NCBI RefSeq assembly: GCF_021168475.1
Contig: NZ_JAJOZT010000001.1
Span: 310,001 to 374,000 of the forward strand
Source: Pseudoclavibacter sp. 13-3
GTDB lineage: Bacteria > Actinomycetota > Actinomycetes > Actinomycetales > Microbacteriaceae
DNA: 64,000 nt
Direction: 5' to 3'
The notes under the pieces are model-generated. The model made no database searches. It had not been told where the DNA came from and saw only the letters and a list, made by a program, of their open reading frames with translations. Every line of letters starts with the position of its first letter. Position 1 is the first letter of the stretch. Positions 3,231 to 50,780 of the stretch are shown piece after piece. The position numbers and the translations under genes were made by a program.

Positions 3231-5771
3231 TCATCTGCAGGCTGGCTCGGCGAAGCTGACGTCGTCGCCATGGCGCACAGTCGCAACGTGCGCAATGCGC
3301 ATCTCGTGCCTTATGCGAACGAGGCTCTCATCTTGCATAGACTGCGACTCACGACGCCAAGTTGCGAGGTACTTGTTGATGATCTGCCGCACGCGTTCAC
3401 GAGTCAGACCAACGAGGGCACCAATCGCGTCATATGTCATCTCTTCACCGGTTAGGAAACCGAAACGGGCACTGATGATCTTCGCATCACGGCGCGGCAC
3501 TGTGCTCAAGAGCCTCTGCGCACAAAAGCGAAGGTCTGCTCGAAGCAAAGCTGCGTACAGCGGCTCCGAACTCGATTTCATGGTGTCTGATATCGCTCCA
3601 AGAAACACACGGTCACCATCCTTCAGCCAGACTGGCGAGTCAAGCGAGATGACCGAGTAGTCATATCCCATAGTCTCTGCCAGTTCGTCCGCAGTCGACT
3701 CCGTGGACGCAGCAAGCGCATCCACTGTCTCGTCATGGGTTGCCGTACCCTCACGCACACGCTGTGCCAGGGACGGCTCCAGACGACCGTCTTCCTCAGA
3801 TACTGAACATTCCAACGTACGCAGCGAGGCACGTATGCGAGACAACTTCTCGACCATGTGCACAGGCAGGCGAATAGTTCGGGACTGATCGGCGAGGGCA
3901 CGGGTAATCCCCTGTCTAATCCACCAAGTCGCGTAGGTCGAGAACTTGTTCCCCATGCCAGCATCGAACTTCTGCACAGCTCGCATGAGACCAATGTTGC
4001 CTTCGTGAATGATGTCCATGAAGTCGATCCCTGGTTTGGTTCCCCCGACGTATCGTTTCGCGATGCTCACGACAAGTCGAAGATTGGCTGTGAACAGCTG
4101 CTCCGACGACCTCTGGCCAACGCGACGAGCTCGCTCCAATCGTCTCCGCTCCATCCGGGTTGCATAGATGCCTTCCGTCAAAGCGGATTCCGCGGCATCA
4201 CCCGCTTCTCGCAACTTCCCCAATCGCTTCTCTTCATCACCGTCGATCAGTGGAAAGTGGGCTATGCGCTGCAAATAGTCATGTACGATATCTGCCGTCA
4301 GCGGTACGTCTGAGAGCTGCTCCGACGGTTCTGCATCGGCCCAAATCTCTTCCGCGATTCTCGCTGTGCGGTCCAAATCGGGATCAGACACTGTGTTAGG
4401 GGGGAATGCGCGCTGCCCCTCAACGTCTTCAGAGGGTCGAGCCAGGAATTCAGCAAGAGCAGGGTCATGGGCGTCGCTGCACATGAGCAGACGCCTGGTG
4501 TATTGCAACACGTCGTTGAGATGTTCGTCGCCAGCAACATGAGGGTCTTCCACTGTATCGCGGGCGTACAGCACTACAAATCGCCCCTGACGGCCATCTG
4601 CTTTGCGTCGAATGACGCGTCCGAGCCGCTGCACCATTTGACGACGGCTTCGATTGGCCGCGAGCACGATGCCTAAGTCAGCCTCAGGCACATCGATGCC
4701 TTCATCGAGCACACGAGGGGCGGCAAGAACGTTCACTTCTCGATCACGAAATCGTCTGAGGCCTTCGACACGATCACTGCGCGAGACTCCGCTGTAGACC
4801 GCGACCGCGCGCTGTCCGCAATCAGAGAGCCGTTCAACAGCGCGTTCTGCGGCTTCTTTGGTCTGAGTGAAGACAAGCGTGCCCTGTGCCGCGGCAACTC
4901 CAGGAGCCAACGCATTCAATGCCTCCACCTTGCACCGGGCATCGGCGAGCAGGTGGCGACGTTGAGCGAGCAGTGCCACGTAGCGTCGGGCGAGAGTGCG
5001 ACGCGGGCTTTCGTCCTGCTCTGCCGACCACGCGGTAACAAGTTTCAGAAAGACACGGAATGAAACGCTTTCACGGTTCTCCGATTTCTCGTGCACGTAG
5101 CCGCTTAGGGATCGCCGGGTCTCTCTGATCCGTTCGCTCAGATGATCGTAGTCAGCACGTTGGTCGGGACTAAGCTCGACAGCGACGAGTGCAATGTCGA
5201 ACTCTGCAATGACGCGCTCTTGCAAAGCCTGGTCATACCAGAGCTGATAGACAATGCCGCCGAAATACTCATCAAGCACGGTGACATCGCGTCCGTCTTC
5301 TCGCGCATACGTCGCGGTGAGCCCCAGACGCCAATCGAGGCTGTCGCTCAATGCCGCAGAGAATGCATCTGCAGCGTAACGATGACACTCATCAGCGATC
5401 AACAGTCCTCCACGACCGAAGACGAGGCGCACTCGGCTTGCTGCGTGAGAGGCTTTGGCCACGCTGTGGACCACACCCACGAGCACATCGCAGGTGGACA
5501 AACTGTCGTCACCACCGCCGCCAAGACGACCTGCAGCTGACCACGGCATGGCTGAGCGAATCGACCGTATCCACTGCTCTTGAAGCTCGATCGTCGGTAC
5601 CACGACGATCACCTTGCGCCCTTCTTTGAGCGCTTCTTGTGCCGCCAGCAGGCCCACCATTGTCTTGCCGGCGCCGGTGACTGCCTCGACGACGCCACAG
5701 TGTCGGCGTTTCCGCCACGCGGCCAGCGCCTTCTTCTGCCATTCGAAGACGCTGATTCGGCCCTCAGACAT
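3231..5771 (-). CDS. SF2 helicase fused to a complete sigma-70 factor
   Basis: 846 residues in one uninterrupted frame. The N-terminal half is an SF2 helicase/translocase of XPB/ResIII type: Q-like motif FEWQKKALAAW (9-19), Walker A TGAGKT (about 32), DECH box LLIADECHRY (about 123), LTAT (about 151), GTLVFTQTKEAAERA (about 290) and motif VI QRLGRVIRRK (about 385). After a linker at about 430-495 comes a full sigma-70: region 1.2 DYLQRIAHFPLIDGDEEKRL (about 500), region 2 NLRLVVSIAKRYVG and KFSTYATWWIRQGITRALAD (about 570-640), region 3 (about 690-740) and a region 4 helix-turn-helix TYDAIGALVGLTRERVRQII (about 790). Region 2.4 is close to that of housekeeping sigma factors, so core binding and -10 recognition look intact. 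A strong Shine-Dalgarno AGGGGG precedes the ATG. A protein that pumps DNA and also directs RNA polymerase is inferred; its biological role is unknown to me. Confidence 0.88.
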   Translation of the reverse strand: MSEGRISVFEWQKKALAAWRKRRHCGVVEAVTGAGKTMVGLLAAQEALKEGRKVIVVVPTIELQEQWIRSIRSAMPWSAAGRLGGGGDDSLSTCDVLVGVVHSVAKASHAASRVRLVFGRGGLLIADECHRYAADAFSAALSDSLDWRLGLTATYAREDGRDVTVLDEYFGGIVYQLWYDQALQERVIAEFDIALVAVELSPDQRADYDHLSERIRETRRSLSGYVHEKSENRESVSFRVFLKLVTAWSAEQDESPRRTLARRYVALLAQRRHLLADARCKVEALNALAPGVAAAQGTLVFTQTKEAAERAVERLSDCGQRAVAVYSGVSRSDRVEGLRRFRDREVNVLAAPRVLDEGIDVPEADLGIVLAANRSRRQMVQRLGRVIRRKADGRQGRFVVLYARDTVEDPHVAGDEHLNDVLQYTRRLLMCSDAHDPALAEFLARPSEDVEGQRAFPPNTVSDPDLDRTARIAEEIWADAEPSEQLSDVPLTADIVHDYLQRIAHFPLIDGDEEKRLGKLREAGDAAESALTEGIYATRMERRRLERARRVGQRSSEQLFTANLRLVVSIAKRYVGGTKPGIDFMDIIHEGNIGLMRAVQKFDAGMGNKFSTYATWWIRQGITRALADQSRTIRLPVHMVEKLSRIRASLRTLECSVSEEDGRLEPSLAQRVREGTATHDETVDALAASTESTADELAETMGYDYSVISLDSPVWLKDGDRVFLGAISDTMKSSSEPLYAALLRADLRFCAQRLLSTVPRRDAKIISARFGFLTGEEMTYDAIGALVGLTRERVRQIINKYLATWRRESQSMQDESLVRIRHEMRIAHVATVRHGDDVSFAEPACR

Positions 5772-6079
5772 GATCCATCCCCCTACAAGCAGTCATCCCA
5801 CCCGCGGAAAGCTGGCGGCCCGCTCAGCCTAGATGACACCACCGACACGGCGCGCTCCACCCTCGCCAGAGAGTGATTAGATTTGGATGAGACGCCGCAA
5901 CTTCATATACCGGTGCTTCAGCCCGCTGCTGCCAGCGCGAGCACGGCATCTGTCAACACTTGTGATTGCGCTAGGCAGCCGGTGGATGACCCGAAAAGCG
6001 CTCGGAATGGCTTGACCAATCTCGCACGTGGAATCAGCAGGGGCATTCAAATCCACCGTGTGCACGACCGGCCTCTGGC
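5772..6079. other. Intergenic stretch without a gene
   Basis: No ORF here has a credible start, ribosome-binding site or recognisable product. The left part must hold the promoter of the helicase-sigma gene, which reads leftwards; I see no convincing -35/-10 pair. Confidence 0.5.
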
Positions 6080-8610: not shown

Positions 8611-8871
8611 CACCCCCATCGATCGCAAGCCCTCAACGTCATGCAGCCGGCCCGTGGCCGCCGCAGCAGCCGGGCCGTTGACAGACCGGCACACCACCAG
8701 TCAGGCCGCAGAGTTTCGATGACACGCAACGGGCTTGGTGTATGGAGTCGATGGTGACTGGCAGAATCATTGAGGAAGAATACCGCGCACAACCAGCCAG
8801 ACGTCCAGTCATACGCCGTTCTGAGCATCGGTGTGATTCCTCAAGAGCAATGGAACGTGAGGAGCGGAATT

Positions 8872-9951
8872 ATGACTGTTGCCCGAGGGAACGTTCCCAG
8901 AGCATGGTTGGTGCGTGGGTCCAAAGACGTGCGTTTCGATTCATGGATGTTGGAGAGCGGGTACACCGGCATCGGCTTCCCCGAACTGGGTTCGCTCGCT
9001 CAGGCACCAGATCTTCAGGCGATGAAGAAGATGGTTGCCCAGCAGATGCCCGGCATGAAGAAGGGCAGCATCAGCGCATACGCAGCGCAGCTCAACTCGT
9101 TCGTCAACAAGATCGCCGTCGGCGATCTCGTCGTTCTCCCGCAGACAAAGGCGGGGCTGCTCGCCTTCGGCACAGTCACGGGCGACTACGAGTATCTTCC
9201 TGAGTCTTCTGGGCTCACACATGTTCGAAAGGTGACTTGGGATCGCGTCGACGTCAGCCGGGGGTCAATCAATCAAGATTTGCTCTATTCGCTTGGAGCG
9301 TTCAGCACGGTCTGTGAGATCAAACGCAATGACGCTGCATGGCGACTCTGGCAAGTGCACGACGGAGCTGAAACCGACCCCGGTGCTCGAGCCAAAGCAC
9401 CACTCAACATCCCCTCGGCCGATGCCGACGTTCTGGACTCTGACGAGGCGATCGCTGCGGACGGGCAAGATATCATCCGCTACTCACGTGATCGGATTCT
9501 CGTTCGCATTCGTGAGCAGTACGCCGGACACGCGCTTCAAGATTTGATTGCAGAGATCCTGCGTGCCGAAGGCATGACGTGCAAAGTTCCGCCGAAGGGC
9601 GCCGACGGTGGGATCGACATCATCGCGGGTTCTGGAGTCCTGGGGATCTCGTCACCGACCATCATCGTTCAGGTGAAGTCTCAGCCGACTCACGTCGGCT
9701 CACAAGTGCTTGATCAACTCGGCGGCGTGGTCAGCCAGCACCAGGCAGACCACGGCCTCCTCGTTGCATTGGGCGGGCTAACGGCCCAAGCCAACGAAAA
9801 GGTGAATTCTCAGCGACTCCGAGTGGCAGTGTGGGACGCCGAAGAGGTGCTCAATCGTCTGCTCGAGCACTACGACGTCATGCCCGATACGGTTAAGCGC
9901 GCGATCCCACTGCGCAAGACATGGCTCATCGATGAGAGTGAGACTGTGTAG
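8872..9951 (+). CDS. Mrr-like restriction endonuclease
   Basis: 359 residues. The start is ATG 8872 because a clear GTGAGGAG ribosome-binding site lies just upstream; the frame is open further but lacks a better start. The N-terminal region (about 1-110: PRAWLVRGSK, SGYTGIGFPEL, VGDLVVLPQTKAGLLAFGTV) resembles modified-base or small-ligand reading modules found at the N-terminus of such enzymes. The C-terminal region (about 210-330) is an Mrr_cat PD-(D/E)XK nuclease: LIAEILRAEGMTC, then GADGGIDIIAG with the catalytic Asp, IIVQVKSQ with the Q-x-K pair, and a C-terminal VWDAEEVLN segment. Mrr-type enzymes are typically type IV, cutting modified DNA. No cognate methyltransferase lies beside it, which fits that role. 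Substrate specificity is unknown. Confidence 0.85.
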   Translation: MTVARGNVPRAWLVRGSKDVRFDSWMLESGYTGIGFPELGSLAQAPDLQAMKKMVAQQMPGMKKGSISAYAAQLNSFVNKIAVGDLVVLPQTKAGLLAFGTVTGDYEYLPESSGLTHVRKVTWDRVDVSRGSINQDLLYSLGAFSTVCEIKRNDAAWRLWQVHDGAETDPGARAKAPLNIPSADADVLDSDEAIAADGQDIIRYSRDRILVRIREQYAGHALQDLIAEILRAEGMTCKVPPKGADGGIDIIAGSGVLGISSPTIIVQVKSQPTHVGSQVLDQLGGVVSQHQADHGLLVALGGLTAQANEKVNSQRLRVAVWDAEEVLNRLLEHYDVMPDTVKRAIPLRKTWLIDESETV

Positions 9952-10020: not shown

Positions 10021-11191
10021 CTAGGTGTTCCTCCAGGTGAGGGACTGTCGTTCAAGCAATAAAAGCAGGCAGACCCTGTTGCAGTGTGTGCAGGCGATCA
10101 TCTCCCTGTCGAGCAGCATGCCTGGGTGTTCTTCCTACTGACGTTGTGGAGGCGATCGATGGGTGAGAGGGCTCCGATGCCTGTGCGAGGTCGGAGATGA
10201 TTGTAGTGGTGCAGCTGGCGTGGTAGCTGGCGGCACGCTGCTGGTCTGAATCGTCGTGACGTGCGTAGGCACATGCGTCGGAGAGGGTGCGGTGGAACCG
10301 TTCGATCTTCCAGTTGGTCTGCGGTCGGCAGGGGCGGGTGTACTTGTCTTCCACGTCGTCGCCAAGGGCCTCGTTAAACGCCTTCGAGCGGCAGCAGGAG
10401 CCGTTGTCGGTCATCACCCGCTGCACGGTGATCCCGTGGTGGGCGTAGAACGCGTTCCCAGAACCCAGCGGCGATGTCTTTGCGTTCGTCGTCGAGGATC
10501 TCCGAGTAGACCAGACGGGCGTTGGCATCGATCGCGAAATACAGGTAGGAGTATCCGGCCCAGACCGTCGCTTTCGGCCCGCCTCACGGCCCAGGACGCA
10601 CCAGCCAGCGCCGTTGTGGATACGGCCGATCGTCTTCACGTCAACGTGCACCAGCTCACCCTGTGTCTGCCGCTCATAACGGACCGGCTGGGGCTTGTAC
10701 GCACGGATGCCAGCGTTCTTGTCGACCTGTCCCAGCACCGGAATCCGGTACTGCTTCAGCACTGTCGAGGCTGCGGGCTGCAGCAGGTGCAGGTGATAGG
10801 CAATCCGGTGCAGACCCCACCGCCGGTTCATCTGCAACCCGATGATCCGCCGTTCCGTGGGCTGCGACGTCCGCGATGGCGACATGACTGACCTCGAGGA
10901 ACGATCCACCATCGCTGCCTGGCCACCGGCCTGATACCGTGCCACCCACTTCGAAACCTTGCCGCGAGCGACTTGGAAACGCTCCGCGACCCGCGCCTGC
11001 GTCCAGCCATCGTCGATCACGAGCCGAGCGATCTTGATCCGCCCGTCCACCGTGAGCGCGGCGCGTGCATGAGTAGCCCATGGCACGAGGACCTCCATGG
11101 AATCGAGTGAGTGTCGTGACGCACATCGATACCGGAGGTCCTCACCTCATCCCGTCACGCTGCCCAGAACCTCCATGGGAAGAACACCTAG
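10021..11191. mobile_element. Degenerate IS481-family insertion sequence in a CTAG target
   Basis: The element carries a damaged IS481-type transposase. Its ends are imperfect inverted repeats: the left end reads ctaggtgttcctcc (10021-10034) and the right end, reverse-complemented, reads ctaggtgttcttcc (11178-11191), 13 of 14 identical. If the element proper begins at TGTT or GTGTT, both flanks carry CTAG. IS481 elements are known to prefer NCTAGN targets and duplicate them, so the two CTAG copies are probably the core of a target duplication. It separates the Mrr gene from the HamA/HamB-like pair. Confidence 0.8.
10052..11098 (-). pseudogene. IS481-family transposase, frameshifted
   Basis: The N-terminal helix-turn-helix (GWTQARVAERFQVARGKVSK) and the start of the DDE core (GELVHVDVKTIGRI) are in frame. 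From about 10600 to 10460 the frame is lost: the expected segment with the second Asp is replaced by Arg/Ser/Thr-rich nonsense (GREAGRKRRSGPDTPTCISR). It returns at AFYAHHGITVQRVMTDNGSC and IERFHRTLSDACAYAR. A further shift follows, since the typical ending (LHHYNHLRPRTGIGALSPID) is found in the next frame near 10190-10130. With at least three shifts, this copy cannot make active transposase. Confidence 0.85.
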
Positions 11192-11660: not shown

Positions 11661-12458
11661 GTGGGTAAACTTTTCCACCATGAAGCGCTTCGACCACAGC
11701 CAACAGATTACTGTGGGCGGATCTGGAAGTCTGACGACCGTGAGTCACTCGCCCGTGCCATTGCAGACCTTGCGCTCGGCCAATGCGCCCATGTCGAAAG
11801 GCTGCTAAAGTCAACCGGATCGTGGCAATCCATCCCAGCCACGTATAGCATCGATTCCGCTATTAAGTCGCTGACGGTTCCACAGGGTATGGACCCATGG
11901 CACCGTGATGGCTGGGTGTTCCAGCTCATTTCTTGGATCGCAGCGATCGAAGAGTCAGATGGCCTCACTCGTTTTCCTCAAATGGATCAAGCGTCAAAGG
12001 GCTTCGATGGATTCCAACTGGAATTTGATCCAGGCACAGGCAAGGTAGCTCGGGCAGTCATATCGGAGGATAAGGCGACTGACTCGCCAAGGGACACGGT
12101 TAGGGAAATGGTCTGGCCCGAGTTCGTCAGTATTGAGCGTGGAGATCGCCATCCGAGAATCGCAGTGGAAATCGGCGCACTCTTGAATGGTCGATACTCT
12201 TTGGAAAGCGTCACTGAAGCTGTGGATCGTCTACTCCGAACCCCTGAGGGCCTGGCATATCGAGCCTCCGTCACGGCGGGTCAGTATCATACTCAGGCGC
12301 GCGATTTCAACGGCCTATTCAACGATTTTGAGTCCTCTGTGCCAGGCTCCCGAGCACGTAGGCGAGGGAACGTTCTCGAAGTTGATAACCTTCGAGACTG
12401 GATGGATGCGCTATGCTTCCGCGCCGTCGAGATATTGAAGGCCGACCGCCATGTTTGA
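11661..12458 (+). CDS. HamA-like PD-(D/E)XK nuclease of a Hachiman-like defence pair
   Basis: 265 residues, GTG start at 11661 with a weak AAAGAG upstream. The central part contains GFDGFQLEF (Asp116) followed by AVISEDKAT (Glu136, Lys138), a D...ExK arrangement of the PD-(D/E)XK fold. It parallels the GFD...GExK core of DUF1837, the domain of the Hachiman nuclease HamA. The gene overlaps the downstream helicase by 8 bases, the operon organisation seen for hamAB. In Hachiman, a helicase senses abnormal DNA and releases the nuclease to degrade it. Sequence similarity is judged by eye and the protein looks divergent, so this is a probable relative rather than a confirmed HamA. GC content is below that of surrounding genes, consistent with transfer. 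Confidence 0.55.
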   Translation: MGKLFHHEALRPQPTDYCGRIWKSDDRESLARAIADLALGQCAHVERLLKSTGSWQSIPATYSIDSAIKSLTVPQGMDPWHRDGWVFQLISWIAAIEESDGLTRFPQMDQASKGFDGFQLEFDPGTGKVARAVISEDKATDSPRDTVREMVWPEFVSIERGDRHPRIAVEIGALLNGRYSLESVTEAVDRLLRTPEGLAYRASVTAGQYHTQARDFNGLFNDFESSVPGSRARRRGNVLEVDNLRDWMDALCFRAVEILKADRHV

Positions 12459-15400
12459 CTCAGTTACTTCCGCACTCATCGCAGCGTCGCCACGGCTCAC
12501 CGGGGTAGATAACGAGAGACTTGCCGACCAGATCACAGATGCATACGTCCAGGTCACGGTAGCCAAGTCTCTTCTCGGAACTGACCTACGTGCAGAGGAT
12601 CGACTACTTGATGAGCTCCGATCTATCGGAGCTTCCAATGAAGCAATTGCCCTCGCAATCGATGACCCAGAGGTTCAGCAGTCGGCCGCATATGTAGCGG
12701 CCAGCGCATACCATGCGCTGTCCCAAGCGCTCTCGAACGATCAGCGGAACCCCCGGCCACTGGGCTCTGAGTCTATTTCCGCTGCTGTCGCTGCAACGCT
12801 GCTATTCTTAGTCGCCGATGCGGCACCGGACGCGTCAGAAGCGGCATCATTCGTCGAAGAGAATAACGAGACACCTCTCTCATCCTTGTTGGAACTGATA
12901 CGCCTCCTCGGACGAGGGGAAGTACATCTCAATGACTCTCGGCAAACCATTATTCTCAATCCAGACGAAGACCCTTCAACCCTTGGCGCAACAATCGGCT
13001 ACTGGAAGTGTGAGAGGACATTACTAGCGCTGATAGCTAAGTTGGATGGCCAACCTTCTATCGAACATGACATCGAGTCCTTTGCAGACATCGCTTCAAG
13101 TATGTTGAGCACTCTCACTTTCGGTTCCAGCGACAGCACTCGCACTGTCACGAATCGAATCGTCGGCCCCTGGCACCTCGCACGACTTCTCGAGATGGCT
13201 GAACCGACGCTACTCCTGTCCTCTACCGCTGCGATCGATGCGCCCCACAACGTGGATGCCGCTGGATGGGCGCAACATCTGGTACGTACAGCTCGGCGCC
13301 GTCCGTTGCTCTGGCGGAATCATCGCGCCGCCCTCGATTCAGGCCTCCTCGACGAGGGCACATCGGCTGTGCTCGCGTTCCCTACGGGCGCAGGGAAATC
13401 AACACTGTCAGAACTCAAAGTTGTTGCCACAGTCCTTCGAGGAAAGAACGTCATCTGCCTGGCTCCGACCTTGTCACTAGTCGATCAGCTAGCCCGCGCC
13501 TTCAGGCAAGTGGCACCCACGGCGACAGTAATTGCGCAACGAGAAGCCGACGAAGATCTTATAGGGCTTGGCAACGTTGGCCCTAAGATCTACGTTATGA
13601 CTCCCGAGAGCTGTTTGGCGGCCCTTGGTCTTGACTTCCAACGGTTTGGTGATGTCGGTCTCGTCATGTTCGATGAGGCGCACCTTATGCACTCAGAAGG
13701 CTCTGAGCCCACGCGCCGATCAATCGACGCAACGCTCTGCTTCCTGACTCTGGCGACGAGATTCCCAGCAGCAGATCTACTGCTAGTGTCTGCGATGATC
13801 GCAAACGCAGAAGAGCTCTCCACCTGGCTGGCCTCGATTACCGAGCGAAAAGCGATCGCCCTCGACGATCCGTGGAAGCCCACGCGCCAGGCTCGCGGAG
13901 CCCTCGTCTACGACGCCCAGAGAGTCCGGCAGCTCCGAGCCCAGCTTGATGAAGCCTTCCAGTCCTCAACCACCCAAGGCGTCCCGGCTGCAACGCGCAA
14001 GACGATGACAGCATTCCCATACGGATTATTTAGTCTTCGGTCGACGTGGGAGTCGAGCAATACACGGGACTACCGCTTCGTCCGCTTGCTCGACGAGCAG
14101 GTTCCGCTAGCCATTGGCGGCAAACGATCCAAAGACAATGCGTGGTGGCTGACGCCCAATGCCAACCAGGTAGCTGCCAGTCTCGCACGGGCCTCTGCCC
14201 GTTCTGGAATGAAGACGCTCGTGTTCGCTAACCAGCCAACGTGGACTGTATCGATTGCTCGAGATATATCAACCGGTGGTACGCGCCATACTCGATTAGT
14301 CTCCGCAGAACGCGACTTGATGAAGCGCATCGTGGACGCGCTTGGCACTGAGTCCGCGATGTACCTCGCCATCGATGAAGGCGGCGTGCGAGGAGATGCG
14401 ATCCCGCATCATAGCCTGTTGCTTCCGGATGAACGCCGGCTTCACGAGCGGCTCTACCAGCGCCCGGATGGCGTGCCCGTCCTGGTTGCGACATCAACGA
14501 TCGCTCAAGGAATGAATTTTCCCAGCGAGTTCGTGATCATCACCAGCGATCGGAGATTTGATACAGCAACGAACTCACGCGCGCGTGTCGAGTCCCATGA
14601 ACTGCTTAACGCAGCAGGAAGGGCGGGTCGCGCAGGTGCCCACGCGAACGCGCTTGTTCTCGTGATCCCTGGAGACCTCGTCGAGTACGACGGTGAAGGT
14701 CAGATTGGTGCAGCGTGGCCCCCCTCCAAGATGCTTTCTCCAAGAGTGACCAGTGTGTTACGCTTACAGACCCTTTTCAACCTCTTCTCACTGCACTAGA
14801 CGGCGAAGACCGCCCGCCGCTCGTTGACTACCTCACTCGTCGCCTCGATAGCGTTGCTGACACAACAGTTGGCCCTCGACTCATTCAGAGCAGCCTGCTG
14901 GCCCACACCTCGCGAGGGACGAAAATGGAGACATGGATCAATCAGAAAGTTGCGCAGCTATCTGCTTTAGTCGAAGCTGAGGATGCCGAACCTTGGGTCC
15001 GGCAGTGCGCGCTTATCTCCGGACTTCCCCTCGCAGATATTCAGTTTGTCGCGGAGTCGCTGAACTCCGCACCAGCGGGCATTGGGACCATCGAGTCGTG
15101 GTCTGCCTGGATCCTTAACCTTCTAGAGACGCGGTCCGCCATGACGGAGGCGATGCTTCGAGCCGGCAGCAGAGCCGCGCTCACAGGTGCTCCCGAAGAA
15201 CTCGACGACTGGGTAACGTCGGGCAGCATGCTCGTCCAACATTTGCGGGTCCTTTTGCCTCCGTGGCTCCGCGGCGAGTCACTTTTGAAGATTCAACAGG
15301 TAGGAATCACCCGCAAGTTAGCAAAGAATGCGGACAAGAAGTTGACATTCGCACGTAAATTCATGCTGCGGGTCGTTCCAGACCTGGCCTACCTGTTTTC

Positions 15401-15581
15401 GCTGCCCGGCATGGTTATTGAACAACGTGCCGCTCTCGGAAGCGCAGACCCGCTTCCGGCGGACCATCCACTCCGAGTCCTCGGACGATGCGTGGAACTG
15501 GGCGTCGACAGTGCCGAAAAGATAGAGCGGCTGGAAGCGTCCCCGAGCTTGAGTCGACGAGACGTAAGGTCGCGAAGTTAG
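12451..15581 (+). pseudogene. HamB-like SF2 helicase, frameshifted at a C6 run
   Basis: In frame from ATG 12451 to 14799 (782 residues): Walker A AFPTGAGKST (about 309), APTLSLVDQLARAF, DEAH box VMFDEAHLMHS (about 405), SAM in place of SAT (about 447), and motif VI NAAGRAGRAG (about 722). After IGAAWPP the frame runs into unrelated sequence and stops. The natural continuation (LQDAFSKSDQCVTLTDPFQP and about 270 more residues to 15581) is in the next frame, starting at the run of six C at 14719-14724. One additional C would restore a single protein of about 1043 residues. The C-terminal part is helical and ends in a degenerate Arg-rich tail. It overlaps the HamA-like gene. The shift may be inactivating, a reversible slippage site, or a sequencing error in a homopolymer; I cannot tell which. 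Confidence 0.65.
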
Positions 15582-16551: not shown

Positions 16552-18771
16552 ATGCCGACGCCGGATACAAGAAGATCGAGACGATCAACCCCTGAAAGCC
16601 CTTGGATCGTTCTTCCACCCGATCCCGCGCTGCTTCTCGCTCTTGGCGGAGGGCATTCGCTCGAAAGCGCTGTGGCCGACATCATCGACAACAGCATCGA
16701 TGCTCAGGCCGACACAGTTCGCATCCGGTTCCTCGTGCGCGGCGCTTCTCTTCTGGGGATGCAGATCCGAGACAACGGCACAGGTATGGACAAGGCGACG
16801 TTGGAGAACGCACTGAGGCTTGGGAGCCGCAGAGAATACTCATCGTCCGACATGGGGCATTTCGGCATCGGCCTGAAAAACGCATCCATGGGCTATGCAC
16901 AGACACTGACCGTCTATACGACCACAGTCGTCGAGGGCGAGCAGCTCTTCGCTGGGCTGGAGCTCAGTCCGCGCGAGGGCGACACTGACATCCAGGCCAG
17001 GTCGATTACCCCCGATAGGGCGGAAGAGGGATATCGCTTCGGTAACGACGTCTATTCATTCGGCTCGGGTACCGTCGTCGAGTGGGCGGGTATCAAAGGA
17101 GCGTCGAACTCACCCGTACCCGCAGAGCGCAAAGAGTGGCTGAATCAGACCATCGAGTCGTTGAGACTCGGACTGGGCTTGGTGTTCCATCGCCTGCTCT
17201 CCGCCGGAGACCTCAGGATCGAGATGGATGTGCTGGACCTGGCAACAGGTGGTTCCGGCGCACCGCGCTCAGTAGATCCCCTCGACCCATTCGGATACAA
17301 GGTTCCTGGAAGAAGGGGATTCCCCGTACAGCTCTCTGCGGCAGGCCCAGGGAGCACCGAGGTACGCGCGACCTGTCATATCCTGCCTCCGAAGGGCCAT
17401 GACAAGCTTCCCGGCAAAAAGGTGGACTGGCAGGGGCTCTACATCTATCGCAATAACCGCCTGCTTACGCTGAAAGCAGGATGGCACGGGCTGGTCGCTC
17501 CGAAGAATGACCTAAAGCTCGCGCGAGTCGAGATAGAGCTCACCGACGATCTGCTCCCGTATGCAAGCCCGACTCCAGAAAAGAACGACGTCACTTTGAA
17601 GCCCGAGTACGGCAACGCCCTCATGGCCGCCGCTGATGCTGCTTCTGGAGGCGACTTCGTCGGATATCTGGATCAAGCCGTTTCGGTCTGGAAGGACTCG
17701 AACAAGCGCAGCACTGCAAAACCGATCACCGAGATCGGCTCCGGACTGCCCTCTGATGTGGTCAACGGCCTCTGCGATAGCTTCGGTTGGAGGGCGAATA
17801 AGGAACCCGTCGATATCGTCTGGCGTGAGATTGCAGAGGACGACCTCTTCAAAGTCGATCTGGCCGACAGGACTCTGACGATCAACTCGCTCTATTCGGA
17901 TGTCTTCGGAGGTGAGGACACACCGAGCTCATTCCTGTTCTCCACACTGCTCTATTTGCTGACCGAGGCCAATTTCACTCGGGAATCGCATCTGCGCACC
18001 TCTACACTCGACCATCTGGAGCAGATAGACACCGCGCTCCTCGCCGCGATTCATGCTTCAAATGACGATGCTCCGTCGATAGATTTCAAAGGCATGCCTC
18101 AAGATGCCTTGGCTGCCTTGCTGACTGCTTCGCGGCGGCAACCGCCAGCCTCCCCTGTTCAAACGACTCCTGCAGAGACATCCACGAGCATGCGGCCCGG
18201 TGATTCCCTGCCTTCTGAAGAGGTTCGCACTGAGGACGTCACAGAGCGAGCGTCTGTTGCCGCCGAGACGGCTCCTGATGCACTCGATCCGCTCGAGAGA
18301 GAAGTAAAACATGAAGCGTCGAAGACTGCTCTCGTTCCCCCTGACGTCAGGCGTGCCACTCACGAAAAGCGCAAGCTCCCCAGCGCTCCGCTCGACCGAC
18401 TCGACCTGGAGATATTCGAAAAGTACTGTGCTAGGGACAGCATCACTGAAATCGCCAGCGCCCTCGAGCTGACTGACAATGCCGTGGTCAAGAGTCTCGT
18501 GCTGTCTGTGTTCGGCCCAGAAGCGCTTGAAGACGATGCGACACTCGCTCCCTATCATGGCATGCTGTACACACCTGAGGAACGATCTCGCATTCTGCTC
18601 GCCTACAAGACTGCCGATGACCCCTATTCCGCAGTCCCATCGGTCGCAAAGCAGGTGGGAAGAACTCCGTTCGCTATCGCCTGGAAGCTACTCGACAGCC
18701 CGAAACGCCCCGTGCCAATCGACAAGCACGTTAGGCGCTCGGTCAGACGTCGTGCCGCCGTTTTAGCGTGA
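16552..18771 (+). CDS. GHKL (MutL/MORC-like) ATPase, long form
   Basis: 739 residues. An N-terminal HATPase fold shows the N box IIDNSIDAQA (about 44), G1 DNGTGMD (about 76) and G2 MGHFGIGLKNAS (about 101), then a transducer-like region with IYRNNRLLTLKAGWHGL (about 300). From about 520 to 600 there is an acidic Pro/Ser/Thr-rich linker, and the C-terminus (about 610-739) has two helix-turn-helix-like repeats (DSITEIASALELTDNAVVKS; SAVPSVAKQVGRTPFAIAWK) ending in a basic tail. GHKL ATPases of this kind are known partners of Vsr, Z1 and PD-(D/E)XK proteins in MORC-type restriction systems. It is convergent with the Vsr gene, overlapping it by 9 bases. A role as an ATP-driven clamp or DNA-loading subunit of the adjacent system is inferred. 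The start is probably leaderless. Confidence 0.8.
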   Translation: MPTPDTRRSRRSTPESPWIVLPPDPALLLALGGGHSLESAVADIIDNSIDAQADTVRIRFLVRGASLLGMQIRDNGTGMDKATLENALRLGSRREYSSSDMGHFGIGLKNASMGYAQTLTVYTTTVVEGEQLFAGLELSPREGDTDIQARSITPDRAEEGYRFGNDVYSFGSGTVVEWAGIKGASNSPVPAERKEWLNQTIESLRLGLGLVFHRLLSAGDLRIEMDVLDLATGGSGAPRSVDPLDPFGYKVPGRRGFPVQLSAAGPGSTEVRATCHILPPKGHDKLPGKKVDWQGLYIYRNNRLLTLKAGWHGLVAPKNDLKLARVEIELTDDLLPYASPTPEKNDVTLKPEYGNALMAAADAASGGDFVGYLDQAVSVWKDSNKRSTAKPITEIGSGLPSDVVNGLCDSFGWRANKEPVDIVWREIAEDDLFKVDLADRTLTINSLYSDVFGGEDTPSSFLFSTLLYLLTEANFTRESHLRTSTLDHLEQIDTALLAAIHASNDDAPSIDFKGMPQDALAALLTASRRQPPASPVQTTPAETSTSMRPGDSLPSEEVRTEDVTERASVAAETAPDALDPLEREVKHEASKTALVPPDVRRATHEKRKLPSAPLDRLDLEIFEKYCARDSITEIASALELTDNAVVKSLVLSVFGPEALEDDATLAPYHGMLYTPEERSRILLAYKTADDPYSAVPSVAKQVGRTPFAIAWKLLDSPKRPVPIDKHVRRSVRRRAAVLA

Positions 18772-19209
18772 TCCAGCCCGCTTAACTGTCTCCTCTATTA
18801 CAGCTGCTGCATCAGCAGGCAGATCGTGCTCCCAAACCCGAAGCACTTGCCAGCCCGCCTCACGCAGAACAGCGTCTGTCTCCCTGTCCCTCTGAACGTT
18901 CCGCGACAGCTTCGGCTCCCAGTAGTCAGCGTGGGTCTTCGGCACAGTCCCGTGCAGCGGGCAGCTGTGCCAGAAGCAGCCGTCAACGAACACCGCCACG
19001 TGCGCCTTGGTGAAGACGATGTCGGCTTTCCTGCGCCGGTGGTCATTCAACGGTGCATAATCCACACGGTAGCGCAGACCGTGCCTGTGCAGGATCGAGC
19101 GGAGGGCGAGCTCCGGTTTAGTGTCGCGACGCTTGTTCGAGCGCATCGAACGCGCCACGCCATGTGAGCTCGCCCAGGAAGCCCCTTCCTCCAAAGCTGC
19201 AGGCTTCAC
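18763..19209 (-). CDS. vsr: Vsr-type very-short-patch endonuclease
   Basis: 148 residues, GTG start overlapping the stop of the Z1 gene (GTGA). It shows the Vsr fold: MRSNKRRDTKPELALRSILH, GLRYRVDYAPL, then KADIVFTKAHVAVFVDGCFW with the metal-binding Asp, followed by HSCPLH with the active-site His residues, NVQRDRETDAVLREAGW and VLRVWEHDL. Length and motifs match Vsr, which nicks 5' of T in T:G mismatches produced by deamination of 5-methylcytosine. Here it is the last gene of a - strand defence operon, while the Dcm methyltransferase lies about 12 kb away at the other end of the locus. In MORC-type restriction systems Vsr-like proteins have been proposed to act as restriction nucleases, so repair versus restriction is open. 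Confidence 0.92.
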   Translation of the reverse strand: MKPAALEEGASWASSHGVARSMRSNKRRDTKPELALRSILHRHGLRYRVDYAPLNDHRRRKADIVFTKAHVAVFVDGCFWHSCPLHGTVPKTHADYWEPKLSRNVQRDRETDAVLREAGWQVLRVWEHDLPADAAAVIEETVKRAGSR

Positions 19210-22202
19210 TCGCCGTCTTCGGCCGAGACGATCGGTTGATCTTCGTATTCGCGATTGCGCACCGTAAAACCGATACGTCCCTTGGGCGCAGCATTCTTAG
19301 GTATCGCGAGTGAGAAGATCGTCGCGATATCCTCAGTTTTGACGTGCAACGGCAGACCCTCCGGGCTTCGATCCTTCCCTTTAGCCGGATCTGCCGCGAA
19401 GGTCAACAGCATGGCACCCCGCGTCGGAGTGTACAACTTCTCTGCCTTCTCACCGCCGACAGCAAGCGTATTGCCGGCGATTCGTTCGATAGCACCTCTC
19501 TGCCGGAAGGAGCTGCCCGAGAAGCCCGCACGATCCTCGCGGCGCTTCCGCTTGAGAATGGGAATCTCTAAGCTGTCCACGGCCCTAAGTACAGGTTGCT
19601 TCCCGAGATAGGGCACAAGAACCGCCCAATCGTGCAGCAGGCCCTTCGTAATGGCATCCCGCATGATCTTCAGCGTTGGAAGGAAGTCGAAGCCGTCCAC
19701 CCATCGAAACTGCTCCAGCACATTCAACATTTCCTCTGCGCTGACGATCACCGATCGCGCCAGAAAATGCCTGGTCTTCTCCGTGACCTTGTCGTAGTAG
19801 TCGAAGGTCTCAACGTCGCCCAGCCGGAGCAGCCAGTCCTCAACAGCCCGGAAATGTACGCGGTTATTCTCCCCTTTACCTCGGTCAGGCTGACGCGGAA
19901 AGTCTTGAAGCTTTCCTCCGACACCCTTGTACTCGATCTGAGCGTTATACATCTTGTTGCGGCTCGTAGGCTTTAACCAAGGAAGCTGTTGGAACACCAT
20001 GGGAGGCACGTCTATGGGGCGAACCAAAGGCTCACCACTGTCGTCCTCACCGGCATAGGTTTCCAGCTCGTTGCGGAAATCCTCCTCGTCTTCGACGATG
20101 GTCTGGAACGCCTCGTAGAGATCGTATTCCTTACCTCTGCCATCGAAGACTTTGCGCGCGATGAAGAGCCTGACGAGATCCTGATAGCCCGGACGGTAGC
20201 CGAACCAGCGCCCCATCTGCATCAGTGTGTCTGCCTGCATGGACCGGCGGCGATAGTACGTCACTGTAAGGCCCTCAACAGTAAACCCCCGGCTCAGCTT
20301 CGTGCCACCGACGAGAATCCTCCAGACGTGCTCCTTGTCGAAGTCGATCTGCTCGTACTCCGATTCCTTATCACCGTTGATCACTACAACTGGGTCCCTG
20401 GAAACTGTGATCTGATCGAGTGCCTTACCGATGAACCGTTTCAGCTCTTCGAACCGCTCGGGCAAGGGGGCATCCCATAGCCTCGACTCAGAGACCGGGC
20501 GGATATCCGTTTCGAAGAAATCCCTCAAACGTTCAAGCCCTCGTGGAGAGGAGAAGCCCGCACGAGACCATTCCCGTACGATCAGGGATGCAAGCGCCTT
20601 GTGCTCGATCTGTTTGACGGATTCGTGCACCAGCATCGTATGGTGGTCTGTTTTGACCTTGAACCCGTGAGCCTTGCGCCAGAGCTTGATCGCTCCGGTC
20701 AATACGAATGTGTCGAGAGCAGCACGGAGCTCATCGAGTTCCCCCTGCTCGTCATCTGCGACCATCCCGCGGACGAAGGCCGCCTCATTCGAGAACGCAG
20801 GATCTCTCTTCGCCTCGGCCGAGAGCGGCTCAAGATCGTGAAACTTCCGCCCACCCATGTATTCGCTCGGAGGGGTCAGGCTGACGATGAAGTCACGCGG
20901 GAAGATGTCCTCTGAGTCCTCCGGAGAGATGAAGACGTTGGCGAACGGAGTCGCAGTGTAGCCGATATACTGCGCTCTCTTGAGCTCGTGCAGTAGCTGC
21001 GAGATGAGACTGTTGATCGCCGTCCTGTCAGAGTTCCCAGGGGTTTGTCTCTTCTTCGGATTCACCGTGTTCACCGAGGCCTGATCGGCTTCATCGTCGA
21101 TGATCAGCGCGGGTATCTCATTCAGACTGGCACGAACATTCTTCAGATCATGGACGAGCTTTTTCAGTACGCTCTTGTTCTTCTTGACAACGGCGATCCG
21201 CACGTCAGTTCCAAAGACGTTCTGCTCATTCCACACAGGCAGCGCGGGCTTTCGCAGTTCATTTCCACTGCGGAAGTCCAGCGTATCCAGTCCCGCTTTC
21301 AGACTCTTGTAATCGCCGCTCTTCCCGGTGAGGCGCTTGATAGCGGGAGCCGCACCTCCTGAGCCGAAGTCAATGCCGTGCGAGACGAATTTTCCGTCGT
21401 ACCAATCGATATCGCCGTCATGCGCGTAGTCGACATCGCTCAGCGCATCAGAGTTGTTCTCGTCACGACCGCCAAGAATGTTCTCCTTGCCGATCAACTC
21501 CATGTCCAGCCGGCGTTGCGTCTGCGTTCGGAGTAGCTCGACGGTACCAGTCAAGACAATGATGAGGCGGTACCCTGCGTCGATCGCCTTTGCGATCACA
21601 CCGGTGAAGTTCGCAGTCTTTCCGCTCTGCACGTGTCCGACCACCAGTCCCTTCGACTGATACGGCGCCGCCGCCGTCGGGTCCGCAAGTCGGGACACGA
21701 TCTTTGTCGTCGCCGTATCGATGTCGATGACAGACTCGGATGGAAGCTTCCTACCGAGCACCTTCGCATACTCGGTCCAGTAGAAGTCGTGATCGCGCCG
21801 CCGCTCCGGCGTGTACCACGGAGTCCAATCCTTATCGACGATGAAAACATCCCCCTTGAGCCTCGGCGGATATGCCTCGTCGATACTCTCCACTGCAGCC
21901 TGACAGAACCCGAGCAGGTCATAGACGTGCGCTCTGCGCTCTGAGGTGTGCGGCGCCGTCCCTGCGCTCCAAGGCTCGTCGTCCACCGCATCCCACTGCC
22001 CGAGCAGTATGCGGAATTCCACGACGACGGCGCTGTTCACGTCCTCATCAGTGAGGATCTCGACCAGTCCTTCTTCGCCGAGCGAGGTGTCAGAATGGCG
22101 CAGCTCGAACTGCGCCTTCTCTAAGATGTTCTCCGGTCCGTATCCTCTGAGCCCTCTGAGCACCTTCAGAACGGTCCGGACCGCTTCGTCGTCATTCGCC
22201 AT
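19206..22202 (-). CDS. Z1-domain SF2-like ATPase
   Basis: 998 residues. Walker A is GHVQSGKTANFTG (about 188), with YRLIIVLTGTVELLRTQTQR after it. Motif II is PALIIDDEADQAS (about 368, a DEAD box), motif III IGYTATPFANVF (about 413), and the late motif GGTKLSRGFTVEGLTVTYYR (about 633) with MGRWFGYRPGYQDLVRLFI marks the Z1 domain. The N-terminal 150 residues are specific, and the C-terminal 250 residues carry no motif I know. Z1 proteins are helicase-like ATPases found beside GHKL ATPases, Vsr and PD-(D/E)XK nucleases in predicted restriction systems. It overlaps the upstream nuclease gene by 11 bases and the downstream vsr by 4, so all three are probably translated together. The start is supported by GAGAAAGG ahead of the ATG. 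Confidence 0.9.
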   Translation of the reverse strand: MANDDEAVRTVLKVLRGLRGYGPENILEKAQFELRHSDTSLGEEGLVEILTDEDVNSAVVVEFRILLGQWDAVDDEPWSAGTAPHTSERRAHVYDLLGFCQAAVESIDEAYPPRLKGDVFIVDKDWTPWYTPERRRDHDFYWTEYAKVLGRKLPSESVIDIDTATTKIVSRLADPTAAAPYQSKGLVVGHVQSGKTANFTGVIAKAIDAGYRLIIVLTGTVELLRTQTQRRLDMELIGKENILGGRDENNSDALSDVDYAHDGDIDWYDGKFVSHGIDFGSGGAAPAIKRLTGKSGDYKSLKAGLDTLDFRSGNELRKPALPVWNEQNVFGTDVRIAVVKKNKSVLKKLVHDLKNVRASLNEIPALIIDDEADQASVNTVNPKKRQTPGNSDRTAINSLISQLLHELKRAQYIGYTATPFANVFISPEDSEDIFPRDFIVSLTPPSEYMGGRKFHDLEPLSAEAKRDPAFSNEAAFVRGMVADDEQGELDELRAALDTFVLTGAIKLWRKAHGFKVKTDHHTMLVHESVKQIEHKALASLIVREWSRAGFSSPRGLERLRDFFETDIRPVSESRLWDAPLPERFEELKRFIGKALDQITVSRDPVVVINGDKESEYEQIDFDKEHVWRILVGGTKLSRGFTVEGLTVTYYRRRSMQADTLMQMGRWFGYRPGYQDLVRLFIARKVFDGRGKEYDLYEAFQTIVEDEEDFRNELETYAGEDDSGEPLVRPIDVPPMVFQQLPWLKPTSRNKMYNAQIEYKGVGGKLQDFPRQPDRGKGENNRVHFRAVEDWLLRLGDVETFDYYDKVTEKTRHFLARSVIVSAEEMLNVLEQFRWVDGFDFLPTLKIMRDAITKGLLHDWAVLVPYLGKQPVLRAVDSLEIPILKRKRREDRAGFSGSSFRQRGAIERIAGNTLAVGGEKAEKLYTPTRGAMLLTFAADPAKGKDRSPEGLPLHVKTEDIATIFSLAIPKNAAPKGRIGFTVRNREYEDQPIVSAEDGE

Positions 22203-23187
22203 GGTCGGCCTTTCTCTCGCAGAAACCAGTGAGTTCAGCCGGAGGCTCTGCGGCCTCCAGCCCTGTCACATCGATACGGTAGACCAGACCTACGACAAGC
22301 TCGGGTCGGGCAACGATACTCGCGATGTCCTCAGAACCGATGGCCGGGAAGTCAGCATCGACAGTGTAGGCCCTCGGCTCGCTCCTGGAGAGGTACCTGC
22401 GCGTGTAGAGATCGTCGGCAGTGCGCACATCCCATCCGAGTCCCCGCAGCCGATCATCGAAGACGCGGAGGGAGCGCTCCAGAAGCCCTCGGACGCGTCT
22501 CACCCGTTCGGTCAGCGTTTCACCCTCGGCTGCAGCGCCTGCAGAAGTCACCTGGATCGATACCAGGTAGAGCGGCCGCCCCGGCGAGGGCTCAAGCTGC
22601 GTCGCGCTGCCGATGACATGAACCCGCGCCTCCGTGCGCGTGGTCTTCACCTCCGCGTCGAACCCGGGCAGCACAAAGTCATGCTCCTCACTGTCCGGGC
22701 CGAGCCAAGCCGCAGTAGCGGCCTCCTCACCGATTCCCTCGACCAGATGCGCGAACATGCCGAGCTCGCCGAACAGGCCGATCTCCTGCTCGTCGCTGAG
22801 TCTCCGCTTCTTCGACAAGAGCTCCTTGAACGTTACGAGGGCCTCGCCGATGGCGCCTTTCAGCGAACGGCCAGCTTCGAGCTGGTCCACCACCTTCATG
22901 ATGAAGGAATAGCCCTCGTAACCGGTGCCGTCGACGTCGACCCGCAGGTCGTACCAATCCTCGTCTTCACCGGGCTCCTCGACGACATCGATCGACAGTC
23001 TGTCGTAGGCGCCCACGTCCGGCAACGGCCCCGATTTCGGCGATCGTAGCGTCAGCGTCTGATTGCGTGGCTCAATGAGCATCCTCGTCTGCGGCATCGC
23101 CGACAGCGGCAGCACTAGCTCTGCCTCCGCTCGCAGGTACTGCTCCAAGTTTTCAGGCTTCAGCATCCGGCCGGTCTCAACGTCCAT
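22192..23187 (-). CDS. PD-(D/E)XK nuclease-fold protein (DUF4420-like)
   Basis: 331 residues from ATG 23187, which has GGAG seven bases upstream; the frame is open further into the preceding gene but without a better start. The core is GEALVTFKELLSKKRRLSDE, then LGPDSEEHDFVLPGFDAEVK followed by TTRTEARVHVIGSATQLEP: a DxxxPG...EVK signature typical of the PD-(D/E)XK family PF14390, which travels with Z1 and GHKL genes. The C-terminal 100 residues (RYLSRSEPRAYTVDADFPAI and the following IASI) form a separate strand-rich part. It overlaps the upstream GHKL gene by 11 bases and the Z1 gene by 11. The likely role is the DNA-cutting subunit of the MORC-type module; its target is unknown. Confidence 0.82.
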   Translation of the reverse strand: MDVETGRMLKPENLEQYLRAEAELVLPLSAMPQTRMLIEPRNQTLTLRSPKSGPLPDVGAYDRLSIDVVEEPGEDEDWYDLRVDVDGTGYEGYSFIMKVVDQLEAGRSLKGAIGEALVTFKELLSKKRRLSDEQEIGLFGELGMFAHLVEGIGEEAATAAWLGPDSEEHDFVLPGFDAEVKTTRTEARVHVIGSATQLEPSPGRPLYLVSIQVTSAGAAAEGETLTERVRRVRGLLERSLRVFDDRLRGLGWDVRTADDLYTRRYLSRSEPRAYTVDADFPAIGSEDIASIVARPELVVGLVYRIDVTGLEAAEPPAELTGFCERKADHGE

Positions 23188-24718
23188 CGTTCGTCTCCTC
23201 ACCATACGACCTGCGTTCCAGTTCCTCGTCCAAAGCGCCATGCAGCAGCTCTTCCCACGCCCTGAGCTCGTCCTTCTCCCTGACTCCGAGCATCTCGCCC
23301 TCGAAGTATTTCGAGTAGACCAGCAGCAGGAGCATCTTCACGAACGGCGCGTCATCGGCCTCGCCTGTTGAGGCACCGAGGTACTCACGATAGGTCGAAT
23401 TGAGCCAAAGCGTTCTCCTCTCAAGATCGACGCGCACCAGAGCACCGTCCCGCATCGTGCGCCAGCGGATCTCGATTGGTCCCTGTTCAGGAGACGTGAC
23501 GATGTCCTCGAGGTCGTTCCTGAGCGCAGGGCTGAGGCCCCGTGTCACGCCCGAGAGAATCACCGGCCGTCGGTGCCGCTTCCGAGAAATCCTGGATGCC
23601 CCCTCGGCAAACTCGAGGAAGTCGCGAAACCCCGTGCCGTCGGATGCGATGCTCGCCTCCACAGCCTCTCGGAAGTCCGCATCGAACTCGACGCCAGATT
23701 TCTCGGGGTTGATCGTCACCCGCTTCGGCGGCAGTCTGTCTATGTCGAGCGCGATCCGAGCGTAGTCGAGGTCTTGGTTGCGGTGCGCAACTCCGTTCCA
23801 ACCGCCCGTCTGCAGCAGTCTGTCGTTGCGATAGACGAAGAACCCCTGGTACTGGCCTCCGTGGATCCCGAACAGGCGGAAGGCAGGCGATCCCTTCTGC
23901 AACGCCGGCCAGACATGCGCATCGAGGTCGAAGCCCTCGCCATCGATCCTCCCGCGGAGCAGCGTTCCGGGCCGTCGCCCGACAGAACGGTATCCGAGCG
24001 GATCGATCGGCTCTACCGACCTGGTCACACCCGGGCGTCTCGCGTCGAGGTCGAACTCGTCGATGGTGATAGCGACGTCTCCTCGTGCAATGATCCGGTG
24101 CAGTACGAGTCCGAGATGGGTGCGGATGCGCTCGACTGTATCCGCCAGCCAGGCCGCACGATCGTCCTCGTCGGACGAGCTCAGGAAAGTGCGCACACTG
24201 CGCCACTCGACCACTGTCCCGTGCTCTCGGTCGGTTCCGGGGATGTGCGCAGGCCCTTCTTCGAGTGCCGCTGCGACGTTCTCGGGGTCGAGCTCTGCGA
24301 CTGTCGTGGGGTCCTCCGCGAGAATGCGCCTGCCCACAGCCAAAGAACCGCCAGCCTCGATGCTGTAGACGTCGAGGGCGTCGGCCTGGCTCAGAGAGGC
24401 CGCCTTCAAGCCGAGACCGAAATTACCGAGGTCGTCTTCGTCGTAGTCGCGGCGCCCGCCGAACGTCATGGCGCGATCGATAGCCGCATCGTCCATGCCC
24501 CGCCCGTCATCGATGACCCGCAGGCCGTCGACGACGCCACTGTGCGAGAGGAAGCGGATGTGCACGTGCCCGGCTCCCGCGTCGATGCTGTTGTCGACCA
24601 GATCGGCGATGGCCGTGGCGAGCGAATGATGCCTACCGACGGCCTCGGCGATGCTCGGGTCGGGCGGCACCCGCCGCGAACCGATCGCCTGCACCGCGCC
24701 CTCGTCCTGCGCCCCCAT
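23177..24718 (-). CDS. GHKL (MutL/MORC-like) ATPase, short form
   Basis: 513 residues from ATG 24718, ten bases after a strong GGAGGGG; an in-frame GTG at 24727 is too close to that site. The HATPase motifs are IADLVDNSIDAGAG (about 40), IDDGRGMD (about 70) and LGNFGLGLKAAS (about 98). The transducer segment has FFVYRNDRLLQTGGWNGVAH (about 295), matching the equivalent segment in the other GHKL protein of this locus. It lacks the long linker and the helix-turn-helix tail of that protein; instead it ends in an acidic helical segment (YFEGEMLGVREKDELRAWEE). It sits third in a - strand operon, its frame meeting the DUF499 stop within a few bases. Dimerising ATPase clamp function is inferred from the family. 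Confidence 0.88.
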   Translation of the reverse strand: MGAQDEGAVQAIGSRRVPPDPSIAEAVGRHHSLATAIADLVDNSIDAGAGHVHIRFLSHSGVVDGLRVIDDGRGMDDAAIDRAMTFGGRRDYDEDDLGNFGLGLKAASLSQADALDVYSIEAGGSLAVGRRILAEDPTTVAELDPENVAAALEEGPAHIPGTDREHGTVVEWRSVRTFLSSSDEDDRAAWLADTVERIRTHLGLVLHRIIARGDVAITIDEFDLDARRPGVTRSVEPIDPLGYRSVGRRPGTLLRGRIDGEGFDLDAHVWPALQKGSPAFRLFGIHGGQYQGFFVYRNDRLLQTGGWNGVAHRNQDLDYARIALDIDRLPPKRVTINPEKSGVEFDADFREAVEASIASDGTGFRDFLEFAEGASRISRKRHRRPVILSGVTRGLSPALRNDLEDIVTSPEQGPIEIRWRTMRDGALVRVDLERRTLWLNSTYREYLGASTGEADDAPFVKMLLLLVYSKYFEGEMLGVREKDELRAWEELLHGALDEELERRSYGEETNDGR

Positions 24719-24723
24719 ACCGC

Positions 24724-28110: not shown

Positions 28111-28111
28111 G

Positions 28112-31048: not shown

Positions 31049-31122
31049 TGCGAACAGAACGCTCGTCGACGGGCCGGCGCGCCAGCTGGCAAGCCGGGCT
31101 CCGGCCGGCTAGGATCGAAGAC
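31049..31122. promoter_or_regulatory. Divergent promoter between two methyltransferase genes
   Basis: Only 74 bases separate the starts of the DUF1156 and Dcm methyltransferases, so both promoters must share this space. TAGGAT at 31110-31115 is a good -10 element for the + strand, and its expected transcription start falls at or next to the dcm ATG (31123), which suggests a leaderless dcm message. The GC-rich palindromic ggccggcgcgccagctggc-like stretch upstream might bind a regulator. Confidence 0.5.
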
Positions 31123-45098: not shown

Positions 45099-45158
45099 GG
45101 GTGATTCTCCTTAAATGCTGATGCTGTGAAAACTGGTGTGTAAGCGTGCGAGAAGCTC

Positions 45159-50624: not shown

Positions 50625-50780
50625 CCGTTTTCTCTCCCCCGTCAGGAACTCATTCCTAACCCATCTTGAGTGTAGTTGATGCCGCCGACATGATGCGGCG
50701 ATGCCGCATGACGACTGATCGCGGCTCGAACCGAACAAAACGGCACGTTCGAGAGGGTCACAGGGCTCTAGACTTGTTCT
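50625..50780 (+). promoter_or_regulatory. CRISPR leader and cas operon promoter region
   Basis: 156 bases between the cas3 start and the first repeat. It must hold the array leader and promoter on the + strand and the cas3 promoter on the - strand. The part next to the array (aacaaaacggcacgttcgag to cttgttct) is richer in A/T than the array. Leader position is supported by decay of repeats at the opposite end. Confidence 0.75.

Follow-up and report, generated by a model that had tools for sequence, protein, structure and literature searches.

In the window analysed here, a 64,000-nucleotide stretch of DNA from Pseudoclavibacter sp. 13-3, a large helicase gene falls into two open reading frames (ORFs) at a run of six C, and the question is whether this break is a reversible on/off switch, a dead defence system or an artefact of sequencing. 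The sequence-only reading had set these three side by side. The analysis favours the dead system: with a probability of about 0.6, the locus is a Hachiman-like pair whose helicase was recently inactivated by a real single-nucleotide frame change at a G/C-rich spot with the C6 run. Such a real and ordinary loss of the helicase ranks as most likely, the artefact comes second, and the switch, for which the tract itself is the one positive sign, is a distant third. The features on which the question turns are the following.

11661-12458, + strand: gene of a predicted HamA-like nuclease, 265 aa, intact ORF
12451-14799, + strand: upstream helicase part, 782 aa, with the N-terminal region and both RecA domains (from the ORF list, family searches and alignments)
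14715-15581, + strand: downstream helicase part, 288 aa, in frame -1 with respect to the upstream ORF
14716-14726, + strand: interval of the frame change, limited by a conserved Trp codon and a conserved Leu codon (alignments to relatives)
14719-14724, + strand: C6 run at the frame break, the sole C/G run of at least 6 nt within 12451-15581

The six C are read directly from the window sequence, and the split that had been described there is real as far as the deposited letters go: the last 26 or so residues of the 782-aa ORF are an out-of-frame tail, and the second-frame ORF reaches about the same end as an intact relative from the same family (L004). The alignments of relatives mostly stop at the Trp codon (14716-14718), which precedes the C6 run, and restart at the Leu codon after it, with two residues in between. 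Checked for an intact frame in this strain, the helicase is not intact, its frame being broken at 14716-14726. No second frame change or stop in the helicase gene was seen in the ORF list or in the alignment to relatives. A check for other inactivating changes, proposed with the original observation, also came out clean, since the downstream part is open over 288 codons and both the helicase motifs and the putative active site of the partner are present.

It had further been claimed that one added C restores the frame. A single-nucleotide change does suffice, whereas loss of a C inside the run is not forced by the alignment. Trp is kept in 74 of 78 non-identical relatives. The position following it is occupied in these by T (26), M (25), S (7), A (6), N (4), L (4), F (1) or R (1), and by Pro in none; the closest relative among the best 80 of 110 loci reads W-A-P-L at the join. 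Loss of a nucleotide at the edge of the C6 run would explain the data at least as well as contraction of the run. Proximity to the run is another matter. C/G runs of at least 6 nt are scarce (the window has 7, and 800 kb of the genome have 53), and only 0.11% of the positions in the 800 kb scanned lie within 5 nt of one; the coincidence of the break with such a run thus exceeds chance. Runs of this length are several-fold below first-order Markov prediction across the 800 kb, a simulation from the window giving about 26 per 64 kb.

The identification of the gene as a HamB-like helicase is borne out. The upstream part matches the PADLOC models HamB1 (E = 3.5e-26) and PDC-M23B (E = 1.8e-30), and a search of solved chains recovers HamB itself (8vx9_B, E = 1.1e-26). 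NCBIfam DNA-helicase models, Hel308 included, match the core weakly and far under their cut-offs (PRK02362.1, 87.8 versus 887 bits; Hel308, 50.3 versus 1200). Alignments place helicase motifs in the upstream part, and these we take to be Walker A at about 13381-13404, DEAH at about 13672-13683 and NAAGRAGRAG at 14608-14637. The downstream 288 aa match the C-terminal region of intact relatives and are predicted to be all-helical (model pLDDT 84.4). Their predicted structure matches Hjm (2zj2, Z = 10.8) and HamB (8vxa_A, Z = 9.9), values that lie under the caution level of about 13 for helical models and count as support only. The downstream part is predicted to resemble the winged-helix/ratchet region of Hel308/HamB helicases.

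The gene in front of the helicase overlaps its start by 8 nt, and an identical 8-nt overlap is found in 71 of 77 relatives. Its product has no match in PADLOC or Pfam (E 0.01) or in NCBIfam (E 1). Among 37 homologues of this partner searched against PADLOC, none matches a HamA model and one has a weak match (PDC-S39, E = 0.011), and a profile search with the partner found no HamA among solved chains. Its predicted fold (pLDDT 93.9) nevertheless matches HamA of E. coli Hachiman (8vx9_A) with Z = 14.5 (rmsd 4.4, 229 residues aligned), against Z = 7.0 for the best non-Hachiman chain, and in Foldseek the HamA chain 8vxy_A (E = 3.4e-4) is the sole match below E 0.001. Because the predicted fold matches HamA, the missing profile match likely reflects divergence and not absence, and the partner is likely to be divergent from the HamA sequence profiles rather than unrelated. 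Residues D116, E136 and K138 are invariant in the 37 aligned partner sequences (E136-x-K138 is encoded at 12066-12074). The partner is predicted to be a nuclease with a HamA fold and a putative E-x-K active site, and the locus a divergent Hachiman-like nuclease/helicase pair.

Relatives of the locus show whether the split is a property of the family. Scanning one genome per species led to 110 confirmed loci, and the best 80 of these were retained; one viral contig, the same-family locus L004 and five plasmid loci bring the set to 87. Scan patterns and confirmation were both built on the first part of the gene, which makes the choice of loci independent of the join; L033 and L051 share one record, and a few further loci are identical around the join. 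Both helicase parts lie in a single open frame in 81 of the 87 loci (a set that includes the best 80 of 110). Two are split at other sites (L037 and L049), and in four the second part has no match (L058, L078, L079 and L115), the ORFs of L058, L078 and L079 being 1103-1106 aa long. That the joined protein would be of normal length is supported by Curtobacterium aurantiacum, the closest relative among the best 80 of 110 (70%), whose helicase is intact at 1049 aa, and by one ORF of 1000 aa or more in 76 of 81 loci (L038-L118), full length being about 1050 aa. In L039 and L100 the helicase ORF continues up to the edge of the available sequence. Three broken helicases were found within L038-L118, namely L049 (752 aa), with an in-frame stop upstream of the break position in the window, L097 (893 aa), with a frame change downstream of it, and L115 (800 aa), which has lost its C-terminus some way past a conserved DQC motif and near a contig end; the helicase of L037 is split on a Rhizobium plasmid. 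The breaks elsewhere in L049, L097 and L115 suggest that the helicase is lost now and then among relatives and that the split in the window is a non-conserved feature. A conserved split gene was rejected, as none of the relatives examined is split at the same point. None of the 83 loci that match the second part (best 80 of 110 included) has a C/G run longer than 4 nt in the 57-nt segment at the join, the longest run being 4 nt in 3 of them and shorter in 80.

Closer to the strain, the helicase query was matched in 293 of 299 genomes of the family at E 0.001, and the only close match among the matches listed is G066 (E = 4.8e-182, intact, the genome of L004), the others being weak. Across the order, the C-terminal part was matched in 3 of 396 genomes, one being the own genome and the other two giving weak matches. 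In the three other genomes of the genus the C-terminal part has no match and the first part matched weakly, so that they offer no sister allele. In the own genome, the other helicase match among the matches listed is weak (E = 7.6e-8), and no second copy of the helicase was seen among these matches. A search for near-identical DNA among plasmids or phages gave nothing useful.

Compared with the C. aurantiacum locus, the helicase has a pN/pS of 0.258 upstream of the break and of 0.267 downstream of it, and the partner one of 0.296; synonymous sites are near saturation in this comparison, and pN/pS shows past constraint and gives no date for the break. Because both parts have been under equal constraint, the break looks recent, in the sense of being young relative to the divergence from C. 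aurantiacum.

The surroundings of the pair contain the following features.

3234-5792, - strand: helicase-sigma factor fusion, 853-aa open frame
8770-9951, + strand: Mrr-like restriction endonuclease (PADLOC PDC-S02)
10052-11098, - strand: IS481-type transposase, decayed, outside the system
16552-18771, + strand: HATPase (MzaB-like), in an Mza-like gene set spanning 16552-25150
18763-19209, - strand: Vsr, in the Mza-like gene set
19206-22202, - strand: Z1 protein (MzaC), in the Mza-like gene set
22195-23337, - strand: DUF4420 protein (MzaD), in the Mza-like gene set
23180-25150, - strand: second HATPase, in the Mza-like gene set
24727-31108, - strand: HmaC (N-terminal HEPN_Swt1 domain) and HmaB (DUF1156 methylase)
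31033-32214, + strand: cytosine methylase, adjoining HmaC/HmaB
within 43911-56117: Type I-E CRISPR-Cas genes, with matches to Cas7e and Cas3e
50964-56117: tandem array of units of about 61 bp, a CRISPR array by appearance

The 853-aa frame joins an XPB/ResIII-like helicase (PADLOC PbeA-like) to sigma-70 regions 1.2, 2 and 4 (an MzaA-like part). The transposase lies about 560 nt upstream of the pair and has three frame changes, counted against an annotated Clavibacter element, which partly cancel and leave a still long ORF; its one full-length match in the genome is itself. Two stretches of the window have no more than partial matches in the other genomes of the genus, which is in line with the region being an island, and the three frame changes in the transposase beside the pair indicate that decay occurs in this island.

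Taken together, a recent loss of the helicase would proceed as follows. Slippage at the short run would cause the indel, and one single-nucleotide frame change would inactivate the gene. Translation would then give a 782-aa protein with both RecA domains and without the winged-helix/ratchet region of about 290 aa, which in Ski2/Hel308 helicases contributes to the DNA channel. In Hachiman, the available parts of the published accounts describe HamB as the sensor helicase and HamA as the nuclease effector. By analogy, the intact form of the pair in the window would work in the same way, and the nuclease would now stay intact but without its sensor helicase; the truncated helicase is probably non-functional and the pair inert. 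In favour of helicase loss are the single frame change, in a gene where no other defect was seen, and the breakage of the same helicase at other places in L049, L097, L115 and L037, and we infer that the mutation is real and recent.

The reading next in order holds that the gene is intact in the strain and that the deposited sequence dropped one nucleotide at the homopolymer. It is favoured by the same solitary change in an otherwise sound gene and by its position at the gene's sole C/G run of at least 6 nt, and singleton frame changes are treated as likely indel mutations or sequencing errors in the available part of PMC3711429. The quality of the assembly argues against it: 2.35 Mb in nine contigs, completeness 100, with the window on a contig of 842 kb (G+C of the first 400 kb of contig 1, 65.6%). 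In a frame survey, the queries were genes from another genome of the genus whose G+C pattern is coding-like, and they were compared with 800 kb of the assembly, 40 residues being skipped at each gene end; of 452 query genes, 247 had a good match and the 205 without one were left out. Among these 247 conserved genes, 241 are undisrupted and none has a mid-gene frame change like that of the helicase. The six exceptions (three frame joins and three genes with stops) all fall within the first 110 or so residues and all have an in-frame start codon at most 24 codons past the break, which fits over-long start choices without proving them. In the reverse direction, 289 of 296 were undisrupted, with 4 joins and 6 stop rows. 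The single-frame alignments (299 kb) contain 210 C/G runs of at least 5 nt and 14 of at least 6 nt, and by the rule of three the latter bound the error per run of at least 6 nt at about 20%. Judged by these alignments, the assembly is clean in general. Two earlier survey passes were set aside (in the first, 1134 queries gave 36 frame candidates and 442 in-frame stops; in the second, 429 queries gave 22 joins and 77 stops, and 415 in reverse gave 21 and 97); they are taken to have been swamped by shadow ORFs in DNA of 65% GC. On balance, an artefact is unlikely, although it retains an appreciable chance.

Phase variation would mean that cells of the population differ in tract length and that this turns the helicase, and with it the pair, on and off. 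The frame change does sit at a homopolymer, the A6 tract of Listeria inlA reverts to A7 at about 5.5e-7 (PMC2831843, in the part available), and ectopic Hachiman is mildly toxic (PMC12278908, likewise), so silencing could pay. Yet the claim of an on/off switch does not stand up well, as the tract is short and is missing from the 83 relatives examined. Its 6 nt compare with a repeat minimum of 7 nt in the available text of PMC3711429, the genome is poor in long runs (6 C/G runs of at least 8 nt in 800 kb), and a change in the length of the run itself is not established, given the residues after Trp. A weak further argument is that the break lies about 70% into the gene; the 5' bias given in the accessible part of PMC2831843 concerns A/T and not C/G tracts. 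Phase variation is therefore improbable here, and its fuller version, in which the C tract is a reversible switch of a divergent Hachiman-like sensor helicase, most cells being silent and a minority regaining the helicase as a bet-hedged abortive defence, is slightly more so.

Even less credit goes to recoding, in which ribosomal -1 frameshifting or transcriptional slippage at C6 would yield the full-length helicase. The -1 direction and the conservation of both parts would suit it; against it, 81 of the 87 loci keep both parts in one frame, the in-frame site is by inspection not the canonical slippery heptamer X-XXY-YYZ, and RNA folding shows nothing stable downstream (-11.8 kcal/mol, z = +1.39). 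A programmed frameshift gene was rejected on the same fold and on the non-conserved split. The least probable reading is a two-subunit helicase whose C-terminal part has a translation start of its own and assembles in trans with the RecA part: the break right after the RecA2 domain is a domain boundary, but no relative examined is split there and the first second-frame starts are GTG at 14715, at the break, and ATG at 14925, more than 120 nt past the first stop (coupled restart was rejected, there being no start codon near that stop).

As a frame break, the event in the window looks ordinary, and the defence gene was probably caught soon after it was lost. The literature examined on Hachiman and phase variation, covered in part, yielded no account of a Hachiman helicase with a broken frame; the available portion of PMC9148166 gives Hachiman as absent from 94 Xylella strains. 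Of more use than the break is the divergent Hachiman-like pair itself. A nuclease whose predicted HamA fold escapes the sequence models applied here is kept beside a Ski2-like helicase across phyla, which suggests that Hachiman-type defence is undercounted. Going by the record titles, the hosts of the pair are presumably proteobacteria, Verrucomicrobia, Planctomycetes and actinobacteria. The allele in the window, with its HamA-like nuclease whole and its helicase cut short, would also serve as a test of whether restraint of the nuclease depends on the helicase.

Among known systems, homopolymer phase-variable genes share with the window a frame change at a homopolymer and differ in that its tract is short and missing from relatives. 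The C-terminal helicase part matches the winged-helix/ratchet region of Hel308/Hjm, whereas the window helicase has an extra N-terminal region and a nuclease partner and scores far under the NCBIfam cut-offs. AbpAB, like the pair in the window, combines a nuclease with a Ski2-like helicase. The chain ranking second against the partner model (8zue_A, titled E. coli Hachiman, residues 259-537 aligned, Z = 13.6) would be AbpA, going by chain length and the position of the HamA domain in the available part of PMC10732053; there AbpA has 538 aa and an extra N-terminal Cap4 domain, whereas the partner in the window has 265 aa and one domain. Hachiman itself differs in that HamA is a DUF1837 protein, while the window partner is unmatched by Pfam, PADLOC and NCBIfam models; in that the window helicase also matches PDC-M23B, and chains of Slh1, Brr2, Ski2 and Hel308 outscore HamB in the solved-chain search; and in that the window helicase is split. 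It is nonetheless the closest in arrangement, with a nuclease gene adjoining a helicase gene, a predicted HamA fold in the partner and a helicase core that matches HamB, and the E136/K138 of the window lie near the numbers of the tested active-site pair of HamA, E138/K140 (PMC12278908, in the part available), a likeness judged by residue numbering.
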